Positions 14,158 through 51,659 are shown, numbered from the stretch's first letter. The stretch is DNA of 53,249 bases from Candidatus Gastranaerophilales bacterium (GCA_947588755.1 CANPZB010000005.1:1-53249); one strand, 5' to 3'. The notes: a model not told the origin generated them from the sequence alone. Program-made: numbers and translations.

Positions 14158-17100
14158 ATGGAATGTCCTAAATGCGGTTATGAAATAGACGACAAAGCTT
14201 TGGTGTGCCCGAATTGTAAGAAGGTACTTAAATTGGTCTGCCCGATTTGCAAAACAGTTAACGAAAATAATATCTGCAAAAAGTGCGGTTACGTTATTAT
14301 TTCAAAATGTAATAAGTGCGGCAAAATTAATCAGACTATAAATAAAAAATGTAAAAAATGCGGTTTTGATACCGAACGCAGTGTCATTCTAAACGAGAGC
14401 AATACCGATGATTTTGTCTTAATGACTATAGATTTTCCCAATATGGACGATATGAAAAATCTTTTAGGCTCGGTTAAACTCTTAAACAAATTTAAGATTA
14501 ATATTGATAAAATCATACTGGATTACACTAAATCAAACGGATTACGACGCCAGCTCATAAAAAATACTTATGTTATAAGATGCTGTAAAGATTACTCCTT
14601 CAAAGCTTCGGCTCATACAGCAATGACTACCGCAATCGAACTTTTGAACAGTATTACCAAAATGAACTGCAAACTTACCAAAAAAAAGAATGCTACCGTA
14701 AGATGCAATATCTTTCTTATGAAACGCAGTGTAAACGATAATCCCGATAACTTCGATTCGGGATATAACATAAGTCTTTTAAATCAATATTCCAAAAATA
14801 AGGAAGATAAAATTCTAAATACATTCCAAATTATAACCGATCAGAACGTTTTTGATGTTCTTGGAAATGACTACAGGCTTACCCCTCTTAATTCCGTTAT
14901 GATAAATAACGAAATGGTTATGTACTATGAGGCTGATGTCAGAGACAAAGTTAAGGTTGAGTACCCGCAAGATGATGAAGATGATGAAATTAAAATTCCT
15001 AATTTTGTTCAAAATATGCTTATTGAACAAGATAAAATTGACGGGGAATTTTTGAATAATCCTAACATAAATGCGGACATAGAAGCTATTTACGATATCA
15101 AACCCATTGAATTTGAAGATATTAAATGTGATTTTATCAGAACAGAAAATATTGATATTTTTTATCACATTGCAAACAAACTTCAAACAAATCCAAAAAG
15201 CATTTTGGCACTCAAAACAGCCGATTTATATAAACCGTATTCGCTAAAAATTATCAACACCGTAGAAAGTTTAAATTTATACAATAATATTATTACCATA
15301 ACCTGTTATGACGAAATGAAATATTCACCCTATTCATTTTTCAGAGATTTAGTTTCGGCTATTTTTGAATATACGGTTTCGCAAAAATTATTTTCACGGA
15401 ATGATTTTTCCATGTTTGCATCGGTTGACCCCGACGGATTAATTAAAGACCTTGTAATGCTTAAGGAAAGGAATGTAGAAGTAGCTGAGGATACAAGATA
15501 CGTATTCTTTGATATTTTCCTTACATTACTTCAAGCCATTCCCAATACGCTAATATACGTTGAAAACTTTGAAAAAATTGATTCGGCATCTTATGATGTT
15601 CTTAAATTCTTATTTGATGCCTTCGATAAGCTGGATGTAAGTTATTTACTTTGTTACGGCAAAGGTTTTTCGCTGCATAAAGACTCGCATTTCCTTATTT
15701 CAAGACCTTATTACTGTGAAATAACTTTAAAACCGACCGCATTTGAAAAAATGATAGAAGAAAATAAAAATTATTACCGCAATATACTTGATAATTTTTA
15801 TTTCCACAGGATAGCGAAATATTCTTGCGGAAGTATTCTTTATTTGGACATAGCCATCCAATATCTTATTGAATTGGGAGTTTATGAAGCTAAAGAAGAC
15901 TGTATTGACATGATAAATCCCAAAACTATCATAATACCTTCCAACATAAGCCGTCTTATGAAACGCCGATTAAATCTCTTAAAAGACGACATGGAGTCAT
16001 TCAGATTTCTCGTATCCGTTGTACTTCTGGGAACAAGAATTGATTTGACCACTCTGGAAAGTCTCGGATTTGAAAATATGTCCGAATTTATAGATAAACT
16101 TACCAATATGGGATACATTTATTTTTATAATAATTGTATGTATTTCCCTGATTTTAATCTTCTGCGTGAGTGTATTCTTGATGTTACAGACCCCGTTACT
16201 CTGAAAGAAATATCAAAAAGCCTTTTTGAAAAAGTAATGGATGAAAGTATGCCGAGTCCTTCAAAAGCTTTTATGTATAAATTAATCGGTGACAGGGAAA
16301 ATGAATTATCGCAATGGGAAAAACTGGCACGTATAAATCTTTCGCTCGGCGATTTTAATGCTTACCTAAACTGTACCGCCGAAATTCTTAAAATCCTTAA
16401 TGAAAATACTGATGAAGAAAAACAACCATCCGTTGATGAATATAAAATGCAGCTTTACGAAGAAATTTCACAAAATCTTTACCAATATATTCCGAATGAA
16501 ACTCCCGAGGTTGCTCTGGAAAGTCTGCAAAAACTTGAAGAAACAGGAGATGCCGAAAAAATTATATTCATGTGCAACAAATTAATACAAGGCAACTTAA
16601 TCTCTGGTAATTATATGCATGCACTGGAATTAACTCATAAAGTTTTGTCTTTACTCCCCGTATCTTCGCTTAATCCTGCTGACGGGAATTTTAATACATA
16701 TTTCTTTTTAATGTCTTTAATACATATTCATATTCTTTTTAATATCGGTGCATTAAACGACTGTATTGATGTCGGTTTTAAAGTATTGAATGTCGTTAAC
16801 GAAAATACCATACCGTATTTGAAACCCGAATATATATCTTCGGAAGATTTCAGAATGATGATAGTTGATGCCGTCGGTTATGTTGCGATGGCAAATGTTC
16901 TTGTCCTCGGAGGCAATGTTCATGAATTTTTAAAAATTGTCAGAAATGACGTAAGTTCCATTCCCGCTTCGTACGATTTATTTACTGTTTTACAGGATTT
17001 TATGCACGGAAAACTTACAAGCTTTAATGAAATTCAAACGGATGAGAATGACAAATTCGGTTCGTTTATTACGCATATATTGAATGCATTTTTACTAAAC

Positions 17101-17652
17101 AAAGATAATTCCGCAAGATTTGCCGAAGAAATTTATAAGGCAAAAATCTCCGCAGGCATGAATAATTTGCATCAGCTTGAATTGTTTGCGGATTTAATGA
17201 TAGGCAGCGTATATGCCGATATTGAATCATACCAAAAGGCGGAATATATAATAAACAAAGTTATTAAAACCGCAGAAGATAAAGGTATGTCTAATCTTCT
17301 TTATGCGGCATGGTACGTTTTAAGTTGTTTGAAATTAAAATTAAACAAATATAATGCTGCATTCGGTATTATAAATAACTCTCTTATACAATTAGAAAAA
17401 AATAACTTCACGTCAGAATATTTAATAATGATATATAAATACAATATGTATAAAGTTTTAATGTTCCAAAAGGAATTTGACAAGGCACAAATTTGTATAT
17501 CTCAGGCAAAATATATAGCATCAAAATACGGTATAAATTATAAATTTGATGAAAATCCCGACAGTTATATTCCTGTCGACGAAACAGACGATGACCGGTC
17601 AAATCCCGTATCATCGGATGAATTTCAGGATGAAGAAAGTGAGGTGTTATGA
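14158..17652 (+). CDS. Zinc-ribbon, cyclase-like, degenerate STAND ATPase and TPR protein
   Basis: This 1164-aa protein starts with zinc ribbons: repeated CxxC pairs within residues 3-69 (CPKCGY, CPNCKK, CPIC, CKKCGY, CNKCGK, CKKCGF). Residues about 85-260 look like a class III nucleotide cyclase domain that has lost catalytic residues; only the first Asp (MTIDFPN) is obvious. Residues about 330-560 align to the ATPase of the 996-aa protein at 39005-41995, but the P-loop is replaced by ALKTADLYKPYS (about 351-362), while the Walker B-like strand LIYVENFEKID (465-475) remains. The C-terminal half is helical, TPR-like, with an acidic tail. It is probably a scaffold or regulator rather than an enzyme. 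Its stop overlaps glgA (ATGA), hinting at a link to glycogen synthesis. Confidence 0.75.
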   Translation: MECPKCGYEIDDKALVCPNCKKVLKLVCPICKTVNENNICKKCGYVIISKCNKCGKINQTINKKCKKCGFDTERSVILNESNTDDFVLMTIDFPNMDDMKNLLGSVKLLNKFKINIDKIILDYTKSNGLRRQLIKNTYVIRCCKDYSFKASAHTAMTTAIELLNSITKMNCKLTKKKNATVRCNIFLMKRSVNDNPDNFDSGYNISLLNQYSKNKEDKILNTFQIITDQNVFDVLGNDYRLTPLNSVMINNEMVMYYEADVRDKVKVEYPQDDEDDEIKIPNFVQNMLIEQDKIDGEFLNNPNINADIEAIYDIKPIEFEDIKCDFIRTENIDIFYHIANKLQTNPKSILALKTADLYKPYSLKIINTVESLNLYNNIITITCYDEMKYSPYSFFRDLVSAIFEYTVSQKLFSRNDFSMFASVDPDGLIKDLVMLKERNVEVAEDTRYVFFDIFLTLLQAIPNTLIYVENFEKIDSASYDVLKFLFDAFDKLDVSYLLCYGKGFSLHKDSHFLISRPYYCEITLKPTAFEKMIEENKNYYRNILDNFYFHRIAKYSCGSILYLDIAIQYLIELGVYEAKEDCIDMINPKTIIIPSNISRLMKRRLNLLKDDMESFRFLVSVVLLGTRIDLTTLESLGFENMSEFIDKLTNMGYIYFYNNCMYFPDFNLLRECILDVTDPVTLKEISKSLFEKVMDESMPSPSKAFMYKLIGDRENELSQWEKLARINLSLGDFNAYLNCTAEILKILNENTDEEKQPSVDEYKMQLYEEISQNLYQYIPNETPEVALESLQKLEETGDAEKIIFMCNKLIQGNLISGNYMHALELTHKVLSLLPVSSLNPADGNFNTYFFLMSLIHIHILFNIGALNDCIDVGFKVLNVVNENTIPYLKPEYISSEDFRMMIVDAVGYVAMANVLVLGGNVHEFLKIVRNDVSSIPASYDLFTVLQDFMHGKLTSFNEIQTDENDKFGSFITHILNAFLLNKDNSARFAEEIYKAKISAGMNNLHQLELFADLMIGSVYADIESYQKAEYIINKVIKTAEDKGMSNLLYAAWYVLSCLKLKLNKYNAAFGIINNSLIQLEKNNFTSEYLIMIYKYNMYKVLMFQKEFDKAQICISQAKYIASKYGINYKFDENPDSYIPVDETDDDRSNPVSSDEFQDEESEVL

Positions 17653-38973: not shown

Positions 38974-39006
38974 AAGGCATGCATAAAATTTATGTGTGCC
39001 TTTTTT
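38974..39006 (+). terminator. Terminator after the GGGtGRT gene
   Basis: AAGGCATGCATAAA pairs with TTTATGTGTGCCTT (two G-U wobbles) around a tiny loop and is followed by TTTTT. It lies between convergent genes and could also act on the opposite strand. Confidence 0.75.
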
Positions 39007-41995
39007 ATTGGTTAAGTTCCAAAGAATTCATATTACAGAATGCTTTCAGTGCATTTTCGCAGTTTTCAATTTTTTTGATTACGTGGTTATTGTTGGTAAA
39101 TGAAGTATATTCTTTAGCTTTTTGATACATTTTAGATGAAGCGTTTACATAATCATTTTGATGTTCGGACTTGTTTAGTCCGAGTTCCTGATAGTATTTC
39201 CCGTAAAGCAGGTAAAGACGTGATAATAAATCTTTCAGCCCAAATCTTTCGGCATCAGCTATTGCCGTTTTAAGCTGGATTTTTGCACTTTCAAAATCCG
39301 AAATGGTAATATTTGCCTTAATTATTATTGTTCTTAAGAGAATGGCGAAGTAATAGTTATCAATTTTCGGATTTAATGCCACGTCAAGTGCCTGTTGTGC
39401 TATTTCCGAAGCATTTTGAGGACCTTCGGTAATAAGTGTTGCATCCGCAATTAAATACCAGGTTAACAAAGCACCCAGAGCCATCTTCTCTTTTGCAAAG
39501 TATGTTATTTGTTCATTATATATATCCATGGCACGGGCGGTTTGTTCGTAATCTTTAAAAACTTTGCCCAGAAGTGTTTTTAAAGTATTTTTTGTAAAAT
39601 TATCTCCGTTATTATCGGCAAATGTTACGATTTGGAATAAATCCTCCTGAATGTTGTTGTATTGTTTTCTCATAAAGTTATTTACGGTATTGATAAAGTT
39701 CCATCTCAATATGGCTTCATTGTCCATAACCGATGTTTTGTATAGTCTTAAAATTTCTTCAAGCATATTATCTGATGCTTTAAAATCACCTTTTATCGTG
39801 TTTGCAAACGCCAGTGCCAGTTTACATTTGCAAATAAACAATTCGTCCTGAATATTATTGCGTTCGATTATATCAAAAAGAATTGTAAGTATTTCAAAAC
39901 ATCTGTCATTGCCTTGTATTACCAATGCATTTGCCAGCATCAGGTAAGTTTTGAGACAAGTTTCAAATACAAAACCCAAAGAAATATGTTTTGTATTTTT
40001 ATTTTTAATTAAAAAATTATCCAGAACAGGCATTATTTCATTGTCAATCATATTTATGACCTGTCCGCAGTTGCCGATATTGAGTAAAGCACCGAGTTTG
40101 GAACATTTTAATAAAGCTGTTTCAAGTTCGTTGACGGAATTTATGTTATTATCATTTTCATCATTTGTATGTATTTTTTTAATAGCTGCATCTACGCATT
40201 CTACTTCGCCATAGTAGTTTCCTGTTTTTCTGCAGCAGTATGAAAGGTAAGACAATAATTCAATTTCTTTCGGTGTATCTCCTACAGCCTGTGCGTTAGC
40301 AATACCGTCGGGAAGATATTCCATTGCTTCCGAGGGATTTGATGAGGACAAAAGTTTTCCGAGTCTTTCGGAAATATTATATCTTGTCTTTAGTGTTTGA
40401 TGTTCGTCCAGTTCATTAATTAAAGCCAAACATTGTTTCTGTGCTATGGCATAGAGATTAGTATCTCCTATGAATGCTCCTAAGCGTGTGTTTTTTGTCC
40501 ATATATCAAAGGCAAATTCCGTTTGTTTAAGATTTTGGGCTATAACCGCAAGCAATGTAAAAGAACTTAAGGTTATATTGCTCAATGATGACAATATTTT
40601 TTTATTTATTTCAATGAATTTTTTTTCATCTTTGCCTATATTTAAAAGGGTTTCCCATATTAGTAAACTGCTGAATTCAAAATATATTTCGTTCATGGGG
40701 ATTATGTAATCCATTTTATTAAGATATAAGATAATATCATTGAATTTGTTATCATCAAGATTATAAATTTCTTTTATCAAATTTATGTTGATTTTATCGC
40801 CGAGAATTGCGGAGGCAGTAAGTATTTCAAAAGCGGCAGGATTTATTTCCGAAAGAATTAATAAACGTTGTTCAATCAGTTTTTTTACGGTATTTGCAGG
40901 TTTAAAGTCTTTGTCGGCAATTTGTGAATCAAATTTCAGACAAAGTGCCTGATTTATATACAGCGGATTACCTTTGCCGGAAGTGTAAATATGTTTTTTC
41001 TCATCTTCACTTACGAAAGGAAAACCTTCTATGTTTTTTTCTTTTTCTTGAATAAAATTTTGCATGTAATTATATTCCGTCGGTGCAATTGTCATATCAA
41101 GGTATATATTTTCGTTTTCATCTTCAAGATAGAAATATCCCTTTGAGGGTTTTATTTTGTTGTATAAAAGTATAAATTTAAGATTAGCCTTGATTTGGGG
41201 GCGTCTTATCAAATGATTTAAAAAATCGTAGGAAAATCCGTCTATATATTCAAAGTTATCTGCCGCTAAAATGAATTTGTTATTACTTTCAATTTTTTCA
41301 AATATTTTATACAGAAAGTTATATGTCTTATGTTTGTTTTCCGTTAAATCTTCAAAATTACCTTCGGTAGTCGGGTATAAAAAGTTCATCAAATCAAAAA
41401 TTTCATTATTTGTGAGTTCGGGAAATTCACTCTTGAAAAATTTTGATGCCTCTTTCTTAAACTGCATATTATTAACGCAAATATTGGGCAGATTAAACAA
41501 ATTCAAAAGCATATCCTGAATAAGTCCGCCGGACGTAAGCTGTGTTATCGGGGTGCATTTGCCGTAAATCCAGGAAAAATGCAGGTCTGCGAGTTCTTTC
41601 ATCGCGGTTTTAAGTACGAGAGTTTTTCCGATACCTTTTTGCCCTGTCAAAGAAAAAATCTTTTTGTTGTCGGAAAGCAGTCCTTTAATGAGAATATTTT
41701 TTGCATTTTCCTGAGATATTGAATTAGGCGGATATTTCAAATCCTGTTCTTCAATTTCGGATTTATCGGGTTTAAAAGAATAACTGCATTTGCGGCATTT
41801 TTTCGCTTCGGGCATGTTTGCAGAGGAACAATTAGGGCAAATTTTCAGAATTTCATTTCCGCAATTTTTACATTTTTTTGACAAAATCGAGTTAACGGTA
41901 TTGCATTTTTTGCATATCAAACCGGTTCTTGTTTTACAATAAGGGCATTTTACGGAATTATCGGGAATTTCTTTTTTGCATTTGGGACATATCAT
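39005..41995 (-). CDS. Zinc-ribbon STAND-like ATPase with TPR repeats
   Basis: This 996-aa protein begins with zinc ribbons (CxxC pairs within residues 3-70: CPKCKK, CPYC, CKKC, CKNCG, CPNC, CRKC). It then has an AAA/STAND-type NTPase with Walker A GQKGIGKT (118-125) and a Walker B-like FILAADNFEYID (241-252), and a C-terminal helical TPR-like region (about 450-990). This is the plan of signal-transducing STAND ATPases, with the repeats as sensor and zinc ribbons as likely nucleic acid or protein contact. It aligns with the degenerate homologue at 14158-17652 but lacks the cyclase-like insert. It lies 16 bp downstream of a sigma factor on the same strand, suggesting a shared regulatory circuit. 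Confidence 0.82.
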   Translation of the reverse strand: MICPKCKKEIPDNSVKCPYCKTRTGLICKKCNTVNSILSKKCKNCGNEILKICPNCSSANMPEAKKCRKCSYSFKPDKSEIEEQDLKYPPNSISQENAKNILIKGLLSDNKKIFSLTGQKGIGKTLVLKTAMKELADLHFSWIYGKCTPITQLTSGGLIQDMLLNLFNLPNICVNNMQFKKEASKFFKSEFPELTNNEIFDLMNFLYPTTEGNFEDLTENKHKTYNFLYKIFEKIESNNKFILAADNFEYIDGFSYDFLNHLIRRPQIKANLKFILLYNKIKPSKGYFYLEDENENIYLDMTIAPTEYNYMQNFIQEKEKNIEGFPFVSEDEKKHIYTSGKGNPLYINQALCLKFDSQIADKDFKPANTVKKLIEQRLLILSEINPAAFEILTASAILGDKININLIKEIYNLDDNKFNDIILYLNKMDYIIPMNEIYFEFSSLLIWETLLNIGKDEKKFIEINKKILSSLSNITLSSFTLLAVIAQNLKQTEFAFDIWTKNTRLGAFIGDTNLYAIAQKQCLALINELDEHQTLKTRYNISERLGKLLSSSNPSEAMEYLPDGIANAQAVGDTPKEIELLSYLSYCCRKTGNYYGEVECVDAAIKKIHTNDENDNNINSVNELETALLKCSKLGALLNIGNCGQVINMIDNEIMPVLDNFLIKNKNTKHISLGFVFETCLKTYLMLANALVIQGNDRCFEILTILFDIIERNNIQDELFICKCKLALAFANTIKGDFKASDNMLEEILRLYKTSVMDNEAILRWNFINTVNNFMRKQYNNIQEDLFQIVTFADNNGDNFTKNTLKTLLGKVFKDYEQTARAMDIYNEQITYFAKEKMALGALLTWYLIADATLITEGPQNASEIAQQALDVALNPKIDNYYFAILLRTIIIKANITISDFESAKIQLKTAIADAERFGLKDLLSRLYLLYGKYYQELGLNKSEHQNDYVNASSKMYQKAKEYTSFTNNNHVIKKIENCENALKAFCNMNSLELNQ

Positions 41996-42011
41996 TTTTT
42001 TATACCCTGTA

Positions 42012-42587
42012 TTAATTAAAAGCTTCTTTAACTTTCTCCATTAATTTAAAAAGTCTTTTTGATGTTTCGGATTGTGAAATTCCTGTTTTTGCGGCTATTT
42101 CTTTTTGAGTCATGCCTTTTTGAAATCTTAGTATAAAAAGTTCCAAATATTTTTCATCAGGTTCTTCGGAATTAATTTCAATAACGGTATCAACAATTTT
42201 TTCCAAAATGTCTTTTTTTATGGCAAAATTTTCGGGAGTTTCCGGAATATTAACGGAACTGTAAGTTATTTTTGCGGAAGAATAATCTTGAGTATCATCG
42301 GCTATTTTATCGAGAGAAACTTCACCGCTTGACATATATCCGCTTTTGCCGCGTCTTAATCTGCCTGAATTCTTCAATACATTCAAAATAGAGGTAGTGG
42401 CTATTTTTCTTAAATATGCCTCTAAAGTATCTTCGGATGAAACTGTTTTAACAATTAACAAAGAACGCTTGCAGGTTTCGTTGAAGAAGTCATCATACAA
42501 GTCCTCGTTGTTAATATATTTGCTGTTTGATTTAATTATTTTTTCAATTAAACCTAATTTATCTTGTGCGAGTTCCAATTCTAACAT
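42012..42587 (-). CDS. Sigma-70 family factor (ECF-like)
   Basis: The 191-aa protein ends with a clear region 4 helix-turn-helix: LELFILRFQKGMTQKEIAAKTGISQSETSKRLFKLMEKV, key parts MTQKEIAAKTGISQSE. The N-terminal part (EDTLEAYLRKIATTSILNVLKNSGRLRRG) fits region 2 of compact sigma factors. It is the middle gene of a three-gene minus-strand unit, 29 bp after the giant acidic protein and 16 bp before the zinc-ribbon ATPase. AAGGA lies just upstream of ATG, and an extended -10 (TGC-TATAAT, 42605-42613) suggests a second, internal promoter. Confidence 0.82.
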   Translation of the reverse strand: MLELELAQDKLGLIEKIIKSNSKYINNEDLYDDFFNETCKRSLLIVKTVSSEDTLEAYLRKIATTSILNVLKNSGRLRRGKSGYMSSGEVSLDKIADDTQDYSSAKITYSSVNIPETPENFAIKKDILEKIVDTVIEINSEEPDEKYLELFILRFQKGMTQKEIAAKTGISQSETSKRLFKLMEKVKEAFN

Positions 42588-42604
42588 TTCCTTCTCTCTC
42601 AGAC

Positions 42605-42613
42605 ATTATAGCA
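42605..42613 (-). promoter_or_regulatory. Extended -10 box upstream of the ECF-like sigma gene
   Basis: Minus-strand TGC-TATAAT, with no good -35. It lies 18 bases before the sigma factor ATG and just upstream of the 1067-aa gene's end, so sigma factor and ATPase could be made without the membrane protein. Confidence 0.4.
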
Positions 42614-42616
42614 TGA

Positions 42617-45600
42617 CTATAAATTTATTATAAGCCCCAAATTATAGCTATCGCCTTTAATCTCGCCTACAGGCGGTTTTACAACATTTAAAGTATCTTT
42701 AACACATTGTAACACAATTTTATCAATTTGCTGTGAACCGCTTGAGATAACTATGTTTGCTGCTTCTACATTACCGCCGCTGTTTAATTTTACACTTACT
42801 TTTACTCTGTTCGAGTAAGCATATTCCGTTGCAAGAAGCAAATCGACCGAGAGTGAAGATTTTATACTCTTACCTGCCGTATTCAAATAAATCTGGAATT
42901 TTTTGCTGTAAGAAAGGTATCCGGGAACGTCCCAAACGATTTTACTTACGGATAAGTCTTTGTTTGAGGATTTTGATACTGAGGATTGTGAACTTTTTGC
43001 GGAATTTTTAATATCCGTTGTTTTTTTATTAATGTCGTTTTGGCTTATATCAGGAGTGTTTGAAGCTATATTGTTTGTGCCGTCAAACGGGTTTTCCTGA
43101 TTTATATCGGGATTTTGGACATCCGCTGTCGTTTCCGTTGTTTGAGGTGTTTCGGCTACATTTGTATCATTTTTGGGTTTCAACAATATCATTGCTGATG
43201 TTGTGACCATAACTAATGCTATTGCCGCTGCCGTTATAAGCAATTTTTTGTTTTGAATAAGCGGTGATTTTTCAAGAAATGCTATTCCGGGTATTTTGTA
43301 TAAAGGTTTATTGTCTGTTTCTTCGGTATTTTGCAGTTCTGACAGATTTTCGGCAGGAATTTCACCGTTTTCACTGTATAAAATTCCTAATTTTTCTTCG
43401 TTATTATCCTGAAATTCCGTATCGGCTTCATTGTTAAACATAACCTGCTCGTCTGATTGCGGAGCTTCTTCCGAAAAATTGTTCGGGTAGGGATTTTCAT
43501 TAACCGTATCATTATCGTCTGATGCCAATACAGTTTCTTTTTCTTCTTCTTCTTCTTCTTCTTCTTCTTCTGCTGCTGCTGCTGATATTTCTTCATGTTG
43601 AGTTTGCAAATCAGTTTCGCTGTATTGTGTTTCGGAAGCGGTATATTCGGGAATATCTTCATTAGCAGACTCGTTTAAAACAGGTAATTCATCAACGGGC
43701 ATTTGTTCCGTCATGTCAGTTTGTTCGCTAACCCCGATTTGTTCAATTTGTACATCTTCAAACTTATCTTCCGAGTTTTCGGTTGCAATGTTCGTATTTA
43801 TGAGTTCGTCAGCCTGTGACAGTAATTCATCTGACGAAATATTGTCGGTATTTGTGTCCTCATTGATATTTTCATGGGTTTCCGGCTCGTAGTCAGGTAA
43901 ATATTCGTTAACCATTTCCAGAACTTTGTTGTCCTGTTCTTCGCTAAATTCCATGGTATCATCTATAAAATCTTCCAAATCATTAATATCATTTTGGTCA
44001 AATGCCGATATATTTTCTTCTTTTACCTGTTCAATTTCATCTTGAGGTTCTTCTGTTATTTCATCTGCTGTTTTTTCGGTTATGTCAAAAGTTTCGTCCG
44101 CTTCTTTATTAATTTCTTCTCCCGTTTCGTCTTGATTTTCAATATATTCTTCATTATATGTCTTGTCTTGAAAATCTTCGTGTAAATTATTTTCATTGTC
44201 GTCAGAAAGCGTCAAATAATCTTCTTCAAAGTTTTCTGTTATTTCATTTGGCTCAATTTCAGGTTCCTGAATATTAATTTCATCTAAAGAAACCAAATCT
44301 TCATCAATTGTTGTTTCTTCGGTATTATCAGTGTCGGTAATGCTTGTTTCCGTACTGTTATCTAAGGATATTGTTTCATTATCATAATTTTCTTCTTTAA
44401 GTTCGGCAGAAGATATATTTTCTTCAATTGTATTAAAATCAATTTGCGGCAAATCGGTAATATTAAGAGTTTCTGCCGCAATGTTTTCAGCCAAACCTTC
44501 GGCTGCCGCACCTGCGATGCCTCCCGCTATTCCTCCTATTATTCCGCCTGCGATACCGCCTGCTATATCACCCGCAATACCGCTGTTTTCATGAGTTAAT
44601 TCCGATTTGGTATCTGTGTCTTCTTCTGCCGTATTTCCCGATAAATCGTTTTCTTCACTTTTTTCATTCAATTCCTCAAATACCACATCATCAGTGATTT
44701 CGATTTTTTCATTTTCAGGTTCTTCCTGTGTTATTTCATCATCCAAAATGGAATTTTCTAACAGGTTATCAAACTCATCATCCGAATTTTCTTCGTCAAA
44801 TGATACTTCGTCTTCGGTATTTTCATTATCCGAAAGTAAAATATCTTCGACATCTGAATTTTCAGTTTTCAAAAGTTCTTCGGCAAAAATATCATCCGTC
44901 TCGGAGATTTCATCAGGCATATCGGATATTTCTTCAATTGCTTCTAAATTTTCTTCAATTTCAAAGTCATCCGTTAATTCTTCTTCGGGCTGTTCTTCCG
45001 TATCGGCAGTTTTATTTTCTTCCTCCTGATTTTCTTCATCCGAAGGGACATCAATTTCATCAATCAAAGCGGAGGATATTTCTTCATGATTTTCAGGTTC
45101 ATAATCTTTTAATTTGTCCTGATTATCGGTTTCCGTCAACGATTTGTTGGAAAGTAATTCAAAGTTTTCATATTCTATAAATTTATCTCTTAAAATCGCA
45201 CTTTCGGTTAATTTTTTTAACAGGTATTTTTTGTCGCTGTTACTGATGTCATTATCTTCCATTGAAATAATAAGGTTTTCGCATTTTTCAATTTCCGATT
45301 CGCTTAAACTTTTATATGTGTCGCCTTTAAAATCTTTTATATACTTTTTTAAATCCGAAGGACTGCTTAATTTTTCTTTTTCAATAAAGTAATATTCATC
45401 ATTATGATTATTTTTATTAATTAATTTGGGTTCAAAAAAGCCGAGCAGTTTAACATATTGTTCATCTTCAGCTATTTGCAGTGCAAGATAGATATCGGGC
45501 AAAATGTCATATTCAAAATGGGTTTTGGGGATGAAGATAAAGTTTTCATCAAAAACAACTCTGACATCAATATGGATGTTTGGAAGCATTATATCGGCAA

Positions 45601-45820
45601 TATCAAATTCTTCCAGCACTTTTTTAATTGAATGTATGTTGTGTATATCGGATACGTTAATCTTTTCCGAAGCAAGATATTTCATGGCAAGCTGAGCACC
45701 GAGGGCATTTGTATAAGTTCTGCTGCGTGTTTGTTTATCGGCAAAACTTTTTACCGTTGCCGCAGCTTGTAATTCGTCATCTTTTTCAATATAAATCAAA
45801 GCATTTTTGTCATAACCCAT
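42617..45820 (-). CDS. Giant acidic membrane protein: DUF1822-like N-terminus, TonB-like C-terminus
   Basis: This 1067-aa protein has five visible parts. Residues about 20-135 resemble the cyanobacterial DUF1822 family (VVFDENFIFIPKTHFEYDIL, then DIYLALQIAEDEQYVKLLGFFEPKLI). Residues about 230-850 are extremely acidic and disordered. Within that lie a glycine zipper at about 414-442 (GIAGGIAGGIIGG-like) and a run AAAAEEEEEEEEEE encoded by (GCA)4(GAA)10. One membrane helix lies at about 860-882 (LLITAAAIALVMVTTSAMIL). Residues about 962-1067 look like a TonB/TolA C-terminal domain (VKVSVKLNSGGNVEAANIVI). The long acidic part is therefore cytoplasmic and the TonB-like end extracytoplasmic. AAGGAG precedes ATG. 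It heads a unit with a sigma factor and ATPase, so a signalling role (anti-sigma or sensor) is a reasonable guess. Confidence 0.72.
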   Translation of the reverse strand: MGYDKNALIYIEKDDELQAAATVKSFADKQTRSRTYTNALGAQLAMKYLASEKINVSDIHNIHSIKKVLEEFDIADIMLPNIHIDVRVVFDENFIFIPKTHFEYDILPDIYLALQIAEDEQYVKLLGFFEPKLINKNNHNDEYYFIEKEKLSSPSDLKKYIKDFKGDTYKSLSESEIEKCENLIISMEDNDISNSDKKYLLKKLTESAILRDKFIEYENFELLSNKSLTETDNQDKLKDYEPENHEEISSALIDEIDVPSDEENQEEENKTADTEEQPEEELTDDFEIEENLEAIEEISDMPDEISETDDIFAEELLKTENSDVEDILLSDNENTEDEVSFDEENSDDEFDNLLENSILDDEITQEEPENEKIEITDDVVFEELNEKSEENDLSGNTAEEDTDTKSELTHENSGIAGDIAGGIAGGIIGGIAGGIAGAAAEGLAENIAAETLNITDLPQIDFNTIEENISSAELKEENYDNETISLDNSTETSITDTDNTEETTIDEDLVSLDEINIQEPEIEPNEITENFEEDYLTLSDDNENNLHEDFQDKTYNEEYIENQDETGEEINKEADETFDITEKTADEITEEPQDEIEQVKEENISAFDQNDINDLEDFIDDTMEFSEEQDNKVLEMVNEYLPDYEPETHENINEDTNTDNISSDELLSQADELINTNIATENSEDKFEDVQIEQIGVSEQTDMTEQMPVDELPVLNESANEDIPEYTASETQYSETDLQTQHEEISAAAAEEEEEEEEEEKETVLASDDNDTVNENPYPNNFSEEAPQSDEQVMFNNEADTEFQDNNEEKLGILYSENGEIPAENLSELQNTEETDNKPLYKIPGIAFLEKSPLIQNKKLLITAAAIALVMVTTSAMILLKPKNDTNVAETPQTTETTADVQNPDINQENPFDGTNNIASNTPDISQNDINKKTTDIKNSAKSSQSSVSKSSNKDLSVSKIVWDVPGYLSYSKKFQIYLNTAGKSIKSSLSVDLLLATEYAYSNRVKVSVKLNSGGNVEAANIVISSGSQQIDKIVLQCVKDTLNVVKPPVGEIKGDSYNLGLIINL

Positions 45821-46010
45821 TTTTATTTCTCCTTCATGATTTTTCTCTCTGTTATTATAGAGTACACTTTGTTTAAAAATATTCCGAATTTATTGTAAAT
45901 TTTTGTAACAATATTTGATTTAATGACATTTTTAGAGCAAAATAAATATGCTATCAGTTTTATTTAATATATCAAATTGTGTAGTATTAATTTATATAGG
46001 AGATTATCTT

Positions 46011-47688: not shown

Positions 47689-48912
47689 ATGACGGAAACA
47701 TTAATTAATTCAAAACAAGATTATACGGAATTATACGGGCAGTATAACTGGTTTAAAAGTAAATACCCCGATGTTGTTCAGCGTTCGAGTGATGAGTTTT
47801 TCCTTGAGGGATTAAAATTTGTACTGGTCGGTATAAGTAAAAATATAAATACTTTAATGGATAAAGATTCTTATTTCGTCACTAAAATTCGTATTGATAA
47901 ACAGCATGATATGTTTTTCCGCACCTCGGAAAAAGGTATCGGTATTATTCTGGACAAGGCTTTAGGACGTTTGGGCAAAAGATTTAATCTGAACAAAATG
48001 ACTGATTTGGAAGCAAAAATCATAACATCTTTTAATGATTATATGTTTAAAGCAATTCTGCCGTTTTTTGCCCCTGCACCGCCGGTATTAAAACGCAGTA
48101 ATTTTGATGTTATACATTTGAATTTTGTGATGAAAGATATTAATGAAAATACGACTGCCAAATTTATAATAACACTTCCGCAGGAAATATTGGCACCGGA
48201 GGCGGTTGTTGCATCGGAAGATAAATTTGATTACACTGATTTTTCAACAAGCACTCTTGATGTAAGTATTAAAATAGGCACAACAAAATTTTCTTTGTAT
48301 GAATTAAAACATCTTGATACGGATGATATCGTAGTATTTGATAACAGTAATTTGAAGCTTTTGCGGTTAAAATACAAAGATTATGAAAAAGATATAAACT
48401 TAAATCCCAATATGGGAATAGTATTACCGTTTAATAACCATGGGGGAAATATTATGGGTGAAAATTCCGAAAATACAAATTTGTGGGACAGTATTGAAGT
48501 TGAAATGGACGCACAATTTGATTCCGTAAAAATTACGCTGGGAGATTTGAAAAAAATAGAAGAAGGAATTGTGGTTGATTTAACTTCAATATACGAAAAC
48601 AAAGTTACTCTTACGGTTGAAGATAAGCCTATCGCAAGAGGTGAACTGGTTATAGTTAATGACCGTTATGGGGTAAAAATTGATAAAGTCCTTACGATGG
48701 ATAAGGAAAATACAAATTCCGATAAAGAAGAAAATCAGACAGATAATTCAACTTTAAGCGAAACGGAATTAAATCAAATTTCCGACGTAAATGTTTCGGA
48801 TACCGAAACTGCTCAGGGCGGAACTGCTGACGAAGAAGCTCCCGCACAAGAAGGCACTGAAGAAGATGAGTTTGATTACAGTGACTTTGAACTTGAGGAC
48901 GAAGATATTTAG
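47689..48912 (+). CDS. FliM/FliN-type flagellar motor switch protein with two SpoA domains
   Basis: This 407-aa protein has an N-terminal domain (about 1-170) in the position of FliM's middle domain, a first SpoA-like domain (about 180-240: LDVSIKIGTTKFSLYELKHL), a second, clearer SpoA/FliN domain (about 265-335: VEMDAQFDSVKITLGDLKKI, then GELVIVNDRYGVKI), and an acidic disordered tail (345-407). SpoA domains form the C-ring that switches rotor direction. A single protein with both domains resembles fused FliM/FliN or injectisome SctQ. The usual N-terminal CheY-binding motif of FliM is not seen. The next genes are fliO, fliP, fliQ and fliR. Confidence 0.8.
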   Translation: MTETLINSKQDYTELYGQYNWFKSKYPDVVQRSSDEFFLEGLKFVLVGISKNINTLMDKDSYFVTKIRIDKQHDMFFRTSEKGIGIILDKALGRLGKRFNLNKMTDLEAKIITSFNDYMFKAILPFFAPAPPVLKRSNFDVIHLNFVMKDINENTTAKFIITLPQEILAPEAVVASEDKFDYTDFSTSTLDVSIKIGTTKFSLYELKHLDTDDIVVFDNSNLKLLRLKYKDYEKDINLNPNMGIVLPFNNHGGNIMGENSENTNLWDSIEVEMDAQFDSVKITLGDLKKIEEGIVVDLTSIYENKVTLTVEDKPIARGELVIVNDRYGVKIDKVLTMDKENTNSDKEENQTDNSTLSETELNQISDVNVSDTETAQGGTADEEAPAQEGTEEDEFDYSDFELEDEDI

Positions 48913-48940
48913 ATAAATTTATAAAGAAGGGGATGTATAA

Positions 48941-49306
48941 ATGAGCGGATATTTTGCAAATTTCATAATATATACGGCGGCTATGGTAGGTATAATTTTT
49001 CTTGCACTTTTTGTTTATAAAAAAACCGCTTTCGGTTCACAAAATAACAGGTCAAATTTTCTTGCCATTGAGGATACACTTAATATAGGACCGCGAAAGA
49101 GTATTTATGTCGTCAGGGCGGGGAATGAAAAATTTCTTATCGCCTCGGATGCGGAAAGAACCACTCTTTTATCGGAATTGAAAAATAAAAAAACCGCTAA
49201 TGAAGAAATATATACTTCATCTGTTGATGATTTGCCCGTTATTGTTGATTTTCCTTCAAAAAAGACAAATGATACGGTATTCAGAAAGATTTTAAAGAAT
49301 ATATAA
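48941..49306 (+). CDS. fliO: FliO-like flagellar export assembly protein
   Basis: This 121-aa protein has one N-terminal membrane helix (about residues 8-27) and a cytoplasmic domain with the FliO pattern LAIEDTLNIGPRKSIYVVRAGNEKFLIASD. FliO helps assemble the FliP pentamer. It sits directly upstream of fliP, the normal place. AGGGG lies just before ATG. Identification rests on pattern and position, because FliO is poorly conserved. Confidence 0.88.
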   Translation: MSGYFANFIIYTAAMVGIIFLALFVYKKTAFGSQNNRSNFLAIEDTLNIGPRKSIYVVRAGNEKFLIASDAERTTLLSELKNKKTANEEIYTSSVDDLPVIVDFPSKKTNDTVFRKILKNI

Positions 49307-49340
49307 CCAGACTCAGTTAATAAATAATAAGGACAGAAAA

Positions 49341-49982
49341 ATGGAAAGTGTATTAAAAGATATAAATCCGGTACTTCAAATGCTGATAGTGATGACGGTG
49401 TTTTCACTAATCCCGTTTGTGTTTTGTTGTATGACAAGTTTTTTAAGGTTCGTCATAGTATTTTCAATGTTAAAAACCGCCATGGGTACACAGCAGGTTC
49501 CGCCTTCAATAGTAATAATAGGTTTGGCTATGGTGTTAACATTTTATACCATGGGGTCGACTTTTCAAAAAATGTATGAAATGGGTTCAATCCCTTACCA
49601 AAAAAATAAAAATATGATTGAAGCAATAAATGAAGGCTCAAAACCTTTGAAAGAATTTATGATGAAGCAAACCAGAGAGGGAGATTTGGCATTTTTTACG
49701 GAACTTACCCGAAAAACTCCGCCCGCTTCACCCGATGAAATAACCGTATGGGAAGTAGCTCCGGCATTTATTATGAGCGAACTCAAAACAGCATTTGAAA
49801 TAGGGTTTATTATATTTGTGCCGTTTATTGTTTTGGACCTTGTTGTCGCAAATATATTGCTGGCACTGGGGATGTTTATGTTATCACCGACGATTATATC
49901 TTTGCCGTTCAAACTGCTGATATTTATCGCGGTAGACGGCTGGGCATTGATAGTTCAGGGTTTGGTAACGAGTTACAATTAG
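49341..49982 (+). CDS. fliP: Flagellar export gate protein FliP
   Basis: FliP forms the pentameric core of the export gate. The 213-aa protein has the family motifs SFLRFVIVFSMLKTAMGTQQ, PPSIVIIGLAMVLTF, APAFIMSELKTAFEIGFIIFVPF and DLVVANILLALGM. It lacks the cleavable Sec signal of enteric FliP and is closer to SctR in length, but the flagellar context is clear. The central loop (about 75-125) is where the periplasmic domain lies. It is followed by fliQ after 19 bp. Confidence 0.96.
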   Translation: MESVLKDINPVLQMLIVMTVFSLIPFVFCCMTSFLRFVIVFSMLKTAMGTQQVPPSIVIIGLAMVLTFYTMGSTFQKMYEMGSIPYQKNKNMIEAINEGSKPLKEFMMKQTREGDLAFFTELTRKTPPASPDEITVWEVAPAFIMSELKTAFEIGFIIFVPFIVLDLVVANILLALGMFMLSPTIISLPFKLLIFIAVDGWALIVQGLVTSYN

Positions 49983-50001
49983 TAATCAGGAAAGGAATAA
50001 A

Positions 50002-50490
50002 ATGGAACCGTTAGTAGAATATTTAGCAAAAGGTTTTTTATTAATGTTAACAATATCAATGCCGTGTGTACTTATTGCGGCAGGTATAGGTCTGGTTGTG
50101 GGTATTTTGCAGGCGGTAACACAAGTTCAAGAACAAACCATTGCTGCCGCACCGAAAATACTCGGAGTTTTTCTTGTAATAGTAATCGGCGGAATGGGAT
50201 TTATTAATTTGCTGAGAAATTTCTTTACGGAAGGCATGGCAATTGCTTTTAATCATATACCCAAAAATGATTCCTACGTTCTCGCTTCGGATTATTTTAA
50301 GTATACAACTCCGTTTAAAGACGAAATGAAAGACGGTTTCAAAAATCAGTCTGATATTGATGAAATTATGAAAAATCCCGGGAAAACACCATTTTTGGAT
50401 AAAAACCAGAAGATGAAATATTTACCTTCGCCGCGAACACCAATGCCGCGTCCTAATCTGGTCGAAACCGATAAAATCTTGGGGAGGTAG
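50002..50490 (+). CDS. fliQ: Flagellar export gate protein FliQ with a C-terminal extension
   Basis: Residues 1-90 are a normal two-helix FliQ: LLMLTISMPCVLIAAGIGLV, then VTQVQEQTIAAAPKILGVFL. FliQ is usually about 89 aa; here a polar extension of about 72 residues follows (FNHIPKNDSYVLASDYFKYT and a Pro-rich PRTPMPRPN end). No stop or frameshift separates them, and the strong ribosome site GGGGAGG for the next gene lies at the end. The extension's role is unknown; it would sit next to the gate's FliP/R ring. Confidence 0.92.
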   Translation: MEPLVEYLAKGFLLMLTISMPCVLIAAGIGLVVGILQAVTQVQEQTIAAAPKILGVFLVIVIGGMGFINLLRNFFTEGMAIAFNHIPKNDSYVLASDYFKYTTPFKDEMKDGFKNQSDIDEIMKNPGKTPFLDKNQKMKYLPSPRTPMPRPNLVETDKILGR

Positions 50491-50493
50491 TGC

Positions 50494-50877
50494 TTGAAAA
50501 AAGTATTTATACTTTTTATATTTCTTTTAATCCCGAAATATGCGTTCGCATTTCAGGATTATCTGATTTTTTCGGAATTTCCGGTTAAAAGCGTTGTGAT
50601 AAAAGACGGAAAATATGCCGAAATACTCCCTTTGCAGACTATTGATAACACGAAACAAACCATAATTTTCAGATCTTTAAAAGAAGGCAAAACCTCTTTT
50701 GTTATAAAGAATTTTAACGATGAAGCAGTTACAATAAATGCCGACATAAAAAGTGATACTACGGATTTCAGTAAACAACGCGGAATAGAATATTTTCCTT
50801 GTGATTTTCCTCCGGAAGGCTTGATTATTGACGGAAATGAAATACCTAATCCTCCGCAAAGCATGGGAGGTATTTGA
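50494..50877 (+). CDS. Secreted protein between fliQ and fliR
   Basis: The start is TTG 50494 with GGGGAGG at 50481-50487, six bases upstream. The 127-aa product has a clear Sec signal peptide (KKVFILFIFLLIPKYAFA, cut before FQ) and a small beta-rich mature part: VKSVVIKDGKYAEI, then TIIFRSLKEGKTSFVI, which loosely recalls the pilus/secretin N-terminal domain found in T2SS/T3SS systems. That assignment is tentative. Its position between two export-gate genes and tight spacing (3 bp after fliQ, overlapping or abutting fliR) suggest a basal-body or periplasmic partner. Confidence 0.7.
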   Translation: MKKVFILFIFLLIPKYAFAFQDYLIFSEFPVKSVVIKDGKYAEILPLQTIDNTKQTIIFRSLKEGKTSFVIKNFNDEAVTINADIKSDTTDFSKQRGIEYFPCDFPPEGLIIDGNEIPNPPQSMGGI

Positions 50878-50879
50878 AA

Positions 50880-51659
50880 TTGGATAATATAATCAATGAA
50901 CTTATGAAAATGTTTCCGATGTTGAATGCTTATCTTGCGGCAGGAATTTTTATTTTTTCAAGACTGTTGGGTTTTATAAGATTTGCCCCCGTTTTTAACC
51001 GCAAAGAAATTCCTTCTCTTGTTAAACTGAGTTTTGTATTAATTATAACTATAGTTTTAACAACGGTTGTTAAGCCTGATGTTAATGTAATTCAGAGTTC
51101 TTTTGTATTAAGTATTTTATTAAACATAGCCGTTGGTGCAATGATAGGTTACATGGCACAGTTAATACTGTTGGCGGTAGATGCGGGTGCCGATATGATT
51201 AACATGCAGATGGGACTTTCTTCCGCAATGGTTTTGGATCCCACAACATCAAGTCAGGTATCAATTCTGGGTAAAGTTTTTTCGCTTTTGGCGGTGTTAA
51301 TATTTATAGAACTCGGCGGGGTTTACTGGCTTATACAGGCATTAATAAGAAGTATGACAATATTTCCGCTCGGTGCGGTAAGTGTACCTCTTGAACAAAT
51401 TGTTAATATGGATTACTTAATAGAATTGTCGTCAAATGTTTTATATATGGGGCTTCAAATCGCTTCTCCCGTACTGCTTGCGACATTAGGACAGGATATT
51501 ATCCTCGGGGTTATCTCAAAAACCGCACCTCAGGTTAATGTTTTTCAGCTGAGTTTCCTGTTCAAACCAGTTTTGGGTGCCGCAATTCTCGTTTGGATTA
51601 TGCCCATGCTTATTAATATCATAAGCGACTATTTTTTATCGTTTTCGCACATAATTTAA
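50880..51659 (+). CDS. fliR: Flagellar export gate protein FliR
   Basis: FliR caps the FliP5Q4R1 export gate. The 259-aa protein has about six membrane helices with the family motifs FSRLLGFIRFAPVF and AVGAMIGYMAQLI, then MINMQMGLSSAMVLDP. Two TTG starts are possible: 50874 (3 bases after GGAGG 50866-50870) and 50880 (9 bases after). I use 50880 on spacing grounds; the difference is two residues. It ends the fli operon. flhA, the remaining gate gene, is not in the window. Confidence 0.94.
   Translation: MDNIINELMKMFPMLNAYLAAGIFIFSRLLGFIRFAPVFNRKEIPSLVKLSFVLIITIVLTTVVKPDVNVIQSSFVLSILLNIAVGAMIGYMAQLILLAVDAGADMINMQMGLSSAMVLDPTTSSQVSILGKVFSLLAVLIFIELGGVYWLIQALIRSMTIFPLGAVSVPLEQIVNMDYLIELSSNVLYMGLQIASPVLLATLGQDIILGVISKTAPQVNVFQLSFLFKPVLGAAILVWIMPMLINIISDYFLSFSHII

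Follow-up and report, generated by a model that had tools for sequence, protein, structure and literature searches.

A predicted transmembrane anti-sigma factor with a TonB/TolA-like end, encoded beside its sigma factor in Candidatus Gastranaerophilales

What do a very long membrane protein, a small sigma factor and a nucleotide-binding protein do side by side in a gut bacterium? The question is raised by a stretch of 53,249 nucleotides from a Candidatus Gastranaerophilales bacterium (GCA_947588755.1, CANPZB010000005.1:1-53249; this whole stretch is called the window below). Its host belongs to the 'Melainabacteria', non-photosynthetic gut relatives of cyanobacteria. An earlier note on this DNA had singled out a three-gene minus-strand unit, in which the membrane protein would sense the envelope and hold or release the sigma factor. 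According to our analysis, the locus probably encodes a transmembrane anti-sigma/sigma pair in a new architecture, forming an order-wide operon under autoregulation. The three open reading frames lie exactly as noted, with gaps of 29 bp (membrane protein to sigma factor) and 16 bp (sigma factor to ATPase):

42617..45820, minus strand: single-pass membrane protein of 1067 amino acids, predicted anti-sigma factor
42012..42587, minus strand: sigma-70 factor of extracytoplasmic function (ECF) type, 191 amino acids
39005..41995, minus strand: P-loop ATPase of STAND (signal transduction ATPases with numerous domains) type, 996 amino acids, with zinc ribbons, Walker A and a tetratricopeptide repeat (TPR)-like C-terminal region

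From the N-terminus onwards, the large protein is composed of the following parts:

45350..45793, minus strand: DUF1822 domain (residues 10-157, covering the first 156 of 370 PF08852 positions)
45110..45301, minus strand: predicted class I anti-sigma domain (residues about 174-237), its zinc ligands lost in this lineage
43271..45109, minus strand: acidic, presumably disordered cytoplasmic linker
44486..44581, minus strand: glycine zipper inside the linker
43181..43243, minus strand: single predicted transmembrane helix (residues about 860-880)
42620..42943, minus strand: TonB/TolA-III-like C-terminal domain (residues about 960-1067)

Information about the role of this protein came from the region just behind DUF1822. 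When the profile of the N-terminus was compared with all PDB chains, RsiW was the top match (E-value 2.5e-5, residues 175-228). Further matches, with weak E-values, were the anti-sigma factor DdvA and chain B of 3hug, annotated as a membrane protein, which we take to be the M. tuberculosis anti-sigma factor RslA. An AlphaFold model of the N-terminal region (predicted local distance difference test, pLDDT, 87) superimposes on MucA-cyto at 0.8 Å over 50 columns, with a probability of 0.72. In orthologues from other genera and families, zf-HC2 follows directly after DUF1822, at 27-28 bits in three of them and 23.8 bits in a fourth (cut-off 22.2), and the anti-sigma zinc-finger signature HxxxCxxC is kept. 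In the lineage of the window the zinc ligands are gone and the anti-sigma fold is retained. Many class I anti-sigma domains are without zinc (PMC7406223). Taking together the RsiW profile match, the MucA fold, the zf-HC2 orthologues, the transmembrane helix and the TonB-like end, we predict for the large protein the role of a transmembrane anti-sigma factor. It is, judged by its sequence, a variant of the class I factors, with the same domain at a different position in the protein and presumably the same mode of action. Binding of the neighbouring sigma factor by this domain is very probable.

The DUF1822-like N-terminus proposed earlier was recovered, after the full-length protein had given no DUF1822 match because weak TonB matches hid the N-terminus. 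Scanned alone, this part reached 41.4 bits with PF08852 (cut-off 25), in agreement with a search of the genome, and the absence of DUF1822 was thereby ruled out. The best PDB folds for the DUF1822 part (A1 model, residues 1-170, window 45310-45820) were restriction-endonuclease-like, none of them significant.

Behind the anti-sigma domain, what had been described as about 600 acidic residues is instead a stretch of about 666 residues containing 217 D/E and 22 K/R. Linker length varies among relatives, in which the total protein measures 521-1805 amino acids. In one orthologue (L025:8892-10265) the acidic linker carries tandem repeats of about 25 residues. The glycine zipper of the earlier note is present, but few relatives have one and thus it is not a core feature. 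One strong transmembrane helix is predicted, in keeping with a single-pass protein. As for the TonB/TolA-like end, it stays just under the TonB cut-offs by sequence and is clear by fold: the model (pLDDT 87) has the alpha-beta-beta-alpha-beta arrangement of TonB/TolA, and its top PDB folds are the C-terminal domain of H. pylori TonB, TolA-III and the C-terminal domain of HasB, with probabilities of 0.97-1.00.

Such an end allows a different explanation, by which the large protein would be mainly an envelope protein of TonB-Tol type energised by ExbB-ExbD, the sigma factor would merely regulate its own operon and the DUF1822/anti-sigma part would be vestigial. The C-terminal fold, the loss of the zinc ligands and the presence of ExbD in all 39 genomes surveyed (39/39) are consistent with this. 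However, this genome encodes a separate TonB/TolA-like protein together with exbB-exbD-exbD (ExbB and the TonB/TolA-like protein were named by reading the sequences). Moreover, TonB-dependent receptor plug domains, present in 9/39 genomes, were not found in the other 30/39, among them this genome, which in this respect lacks the receptors expected of a TonB energy transducer. The first 240 residues are well conserved, the anti-sigma fold is well formed, and many class I factors can do without zinc (PMC7406223). We therefore regard a mere envelope role as quite improbable. For the periplasmic domain of the predicted anti-sigma factor, receptor-mediated uptake is unlikely, because plug domains are absent and the separate TonB/TolA-like gene serves ExbBD; sensing or contacting the envelope is more likely. 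That the domain senses the periplasm or envelope is, in our view, rather more plausible than not.

The second protein was described as a compact sigma-70 factor, and its 191 residues score 68 bits with TIGR02937 (cut-off 43, residues 13-189). SigW is among its PDB matches, and the Pfam region 2 model alone gave no match. With only regions 2 and 4 in about 190 residues it has the layout of the ECF class. Region 4 comprises residues 145-189 and includes the recognition helix SQSETSKRL, conserved among orthologues as SQxEVSKRL. The factor is confined to this order: no match was obtained in other orders of the class, and photosynthetic cyanobacteria gave region 4 matches only. In two orthologues (L039:6842-8272 and L041:7911-8801) regions 2 and 4 are set apart by long acidic insertions.

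Does this sigma factor control its own genes? The region upstream of the large-protein gene was compared in the 39 genomes and, separately, in the 80 nearest loci, 76 of which reach the start of that gene; being closely related, the loci do not count as independent samples. The elements are:

45880..45885, minus strand: -35 element GGAATA of an ECF-type promoter, conserved in 22/30 divergent genomes and 76/76 nearest loci
45859..45866, minus strand: -10 element TGTACTCT (consensus TGTNNTCT), conserved as the -35 element
45892..45909, minus strand: HLR1-like (RpaB-type) direct repeat GTTACAAAAATTTACAAT, 6 bp upstream of the -35 element

In all 76 nearest loci that include the gene start, the promoter GGAATA-N13-TGTNNTCT lies ahead of the first gene, and alignment of the upstream regions gave GGAATATTTTT-N8-TGTNNTCT. 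A position weight matrix was built from 18 sites and used to scan 1.17 Mb of strands. With few exceptions, the sites upstream of the large-protein gene scored highest; the held-out loci L026, L030 and L045 scored 26.3, 29.7 and 24.1, and one coding-region site in L049 scored 20.3. With one mismatch at most, the pattern is found 24 times, in 21/39 genomes, compared with 4 times for its reversed control. It lies mostly at this operon; the other matches are mainly in coding sequence. Within this genome the promoter is essentially the sole strong match, and two-mismatch matches (23 against 11 in the control) offer only weak intergenic candidates.

The presence of the promoter follows the state of the sigma factor. 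The recognition helix is intact in 21/21 site-bearing genomes and in 2/9 site-lacking ones (Fisher 1.8e-5, without phylogenetic correction, helix states read by eye), so that the promoter is mostly gone where the helix has changed. In G028 and G033 the sigma and anti-sigma genes lie apart, and there it is the anti-sigma gene that has the promoter in front of it, with a spacer one base longer in G033; G033 was scored as site-lacking in the tally, and scoring it as site-bearing would make the association stronger. In one family (L053-L056) both promoter and recognition helix are lost, and the upstream region has another conserved element, TTCATT-ATTAATGATAA. The promoter could instead be read by another sigma factor, with the sigma factor of the operon acting elsewhere, given that the sigma-promoter link is drawn from sequence and that this genome contains practically no other strong match to the pattern. 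But -35 boxes of GGAA type are typical of ECF factors, the site has been lost mostly where the helix of this very sigma factor changed, and it stays with the anti-sigma gene when the genes are unlinked. We consider control by another factor improbable, and autoregulation of the operon by its own sigma factor highly likely. As a prediction, the earlier idea of a membrane protein that keeps or frees the sigma factor is thus well supported by the anti-sigma domain and by a promoter pointing to autoregulation.

The HLR1-like box suggests a second input. It shows 0 mismatches (0/1000 shuffles), and with up to two mismatches it stands at the same 6-bp spacing in 72/76 nearest loci, being shifted in the remaining four. 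A divergent small gene shares the upstream region containing the box, which is tied to the sigma-type promoter by the fixed spacing. The 18-letter HLR1 consensus used in the scan is general knowledge. HLR1 sites tabulated in PMC6331805 agree with it. The genome contains an RpaB equivalog (363 bits, cut-off 330), that is, both the repeat and the gene expected of an RpaB-controlled promoter can be recognized, and RpaB has been reported in Melainabacteria (PMC3787301). Exact HLR1-like matches in this genome number 23, against 8 for the reversed pattern, so that exact sites elsewhere in the genome (L221-L240) outnumber the reverse roughly threefold; several of them lie upstream of genes. Probably RpaB binds the box of the operon, and an RpaB regulon in this non-photosynthetic relative is possible.

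Conservation of the gene order was found among relatives; together with the DUF1822 match and the TonB fold, this goes against each refuting condition of the earlier note that was examined. The sigma factor and the large protein are each present in 37/39 of them and the ATPase in 38/39. Sigma and large-protein genes adjoin in nearly all, which makes the pair order-wide. Among the nearest loci, the TonB-like end adjoins the sigma gene in 80/80 and the ATPase adjoins too in 79/80. All three genes are together in most genera of the family of the window and in single members of two other families, so that the trio extends to at least three families. The ATPase gene is convergent with a plus-strand gene, with a stem-loop and T-run between the two. 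A flagellar link of the operon was rejected, as flagellar genes adjoin in the window and in some relatives and not in others. In the window they occupy 47689-51659 on the plus strand, with a FliN-like C-terminal domain at 47689-48912 followed by FliO/FliP/FliQ/FliR-like genes, identified by reading.

The third protein agrees with its first description as a zinc-ribbon, P-loop, TPR protein. It has a double zinc ribbon above the cut-off (residues 3-70), Walker A GQKGIGKT at residue 118 and a TPR-like C-terminal region. AAA_16 falls just below the cut-off here and lies above it in three of five orthologues examined, and some orthologues have a TPR/MalT-like region. The combination of an AAA_16/STAND P-loop with a repeat region is that of STAND NTPases. 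Family resemblance and operon membership are the basis of the earlier idea of the ATPase as a switch, and make it conceivable, with slightly less than even chances, that the ATPase acts in this sigma pathway. Another protein of the window, of 1164 amino acids (14158-17652, plus strand), has an N-terminal double zinc ribbon matching the first 75 residues of the ATPase; no P-loop family was found in it, and a starch-synthase-type glycosyltransferase gene is next downstream.

A STAND-type ATPase with repeats could also belong to a defence or cell-death module, like the cyanobacterial clusters of caspase-type proteins, DUF1822 and ECF sigma factors, and DUF1822 and ECF sigma genes occur near conflict systems in other prokaryotes (PMC8195603). 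However, PADLOC gave no convincing match for the three proteins, nuclease, caspase and toxin genes are absent from the unit, and its near-universal presence across the order is unlike typical defence islands. A defence role is thus very improbable.

We consider an anti-sigma/sigma pair with an autoregulated promoter as the very likely core of the system, and propose the following mechanism. The anti-sigma factor would combine cytoplasmic DUF1822 and class I domains, an acidic tether, one transmembrane helix and a periplasmic TonB/TolA-III-like domain. At rest, the anti-sigma domain would cover regions 2 and 4 of the sigma factor. When a change is sensed outside the inner membrane, in periplasm or envelope, proteolysis or a conformational change would free the sigma factor, which would then start transcription of the operon that encodes it from the GGAATA/TGTNNTCT promoter, so that the inhibitor would also be renewed. 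In the family of the window, RpaB on the HLR1-like box beside the -35 element would provide the second input, and the co-produced STAND ATPase perhaps a further, nucleotide-dependent one. It is tempting to go further and propose that ExbB-ExbD rings or outer-membrane partners pull the periplasmic domain, with envelope tension or proton-motive force setting sigma release, while the STAND ATPase and RpaB would act from the cytoplasm as additional inputs. We regard this force-coupled version as unlikely; no sigma/anti-sigma system with a force-coupled sensor was found in the literature searched.

Several observations speak against the anti-sigma/sigma mechanism or limit the case for it. The MucA match of the fold search has an E-value of 3.2, a weak value such as a short domain would give, and the domain lies behind DUF1822, not N-terminal as usual. 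When the sigma factor and the anti-sigma domain were analysed for covariation, 94 sequences, whose effective number is only 47, showed no signal. The association between helix and promoter reflects few independent events, because four site-lacking genomes are one family, and the pattern searches gave no clear second promoter target. The ATPase gene is elsewhere in four families, and the two unlinked ATPase copies examined are without the ECF-type promoter. Finally, the HLR1-like box is absent in the other families examined and would therefore be a later or lineage-specific input.

Our results offer a concrete regulator for an order of gut bacteria for which the literature searched gave no sigma factor study. 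They offer a role for DUF1822, which throughout the phylum would accompany sigma factors as a partner domain, and TonB-type periplasmic domains would be linked directly to sigma control. Moreover, they suggest control of a sigma operon by RpaB in relatives that do not photosynthesize; in cyanobacteria, RpaB is known for its part in light regulation.

This architecture was not described in the literature searched on DUF1822. The predicted pair resembles SigW-RsiW, AlgU-MucA and RpoE-RseA in having a small two-domain sigma factor beside a single-pass protein with the same cytoplasmic anti-sigma fold, and an ECF-type promoter ahead of the operon. It differs from them in the position of the anti-sigma domain behind DUF1822, the very long acidic tether, the TonB/TolA-III-like periplasmic domain and the gene order, with the inhibitor gene first and the STAND ATPase third. 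Neighbourhoods of sigma and DUF1822 genes in cyanobacteria have been noted (PMC8195603), and we found a sigma-like ORF adjoining in 16/30 cyanobacterial DUF1822 loci. There, however, the sigma gene precedes the DUF1822 gene, whereas here the large-protein gene is first, and almost all the cyanobacterial DUF1822 proteins examined lack a transmembrane helix and HxxxCxxC, unlike those of this operon. As in the RpaB-HLR1 system of cyanobacteria, an RpaB equivalog and a TTACA-N5-TTACA direct repeat next to a promoter are present, but the host is non-photosynthetic and the site is paired with an ECF-type promoter. TonB, TolA and related energy transducers have the same C-terminal fold and a single transmembrane helix. 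In contrast to them, the protein has a huge acidic cytoplasmic part with regulatory domains, and the ExbBD operon has a TonB/TolA-like gene of its own. FecI-FecR likewise joins an ECF sigma factor, a membrane anti-sigma factor and a TonB connection. However, FecR needs a TonB-dependent transducer, of which this genome has no plug domain, while here the TonB-like domain is part of the predicted anti-sigma factor itself.

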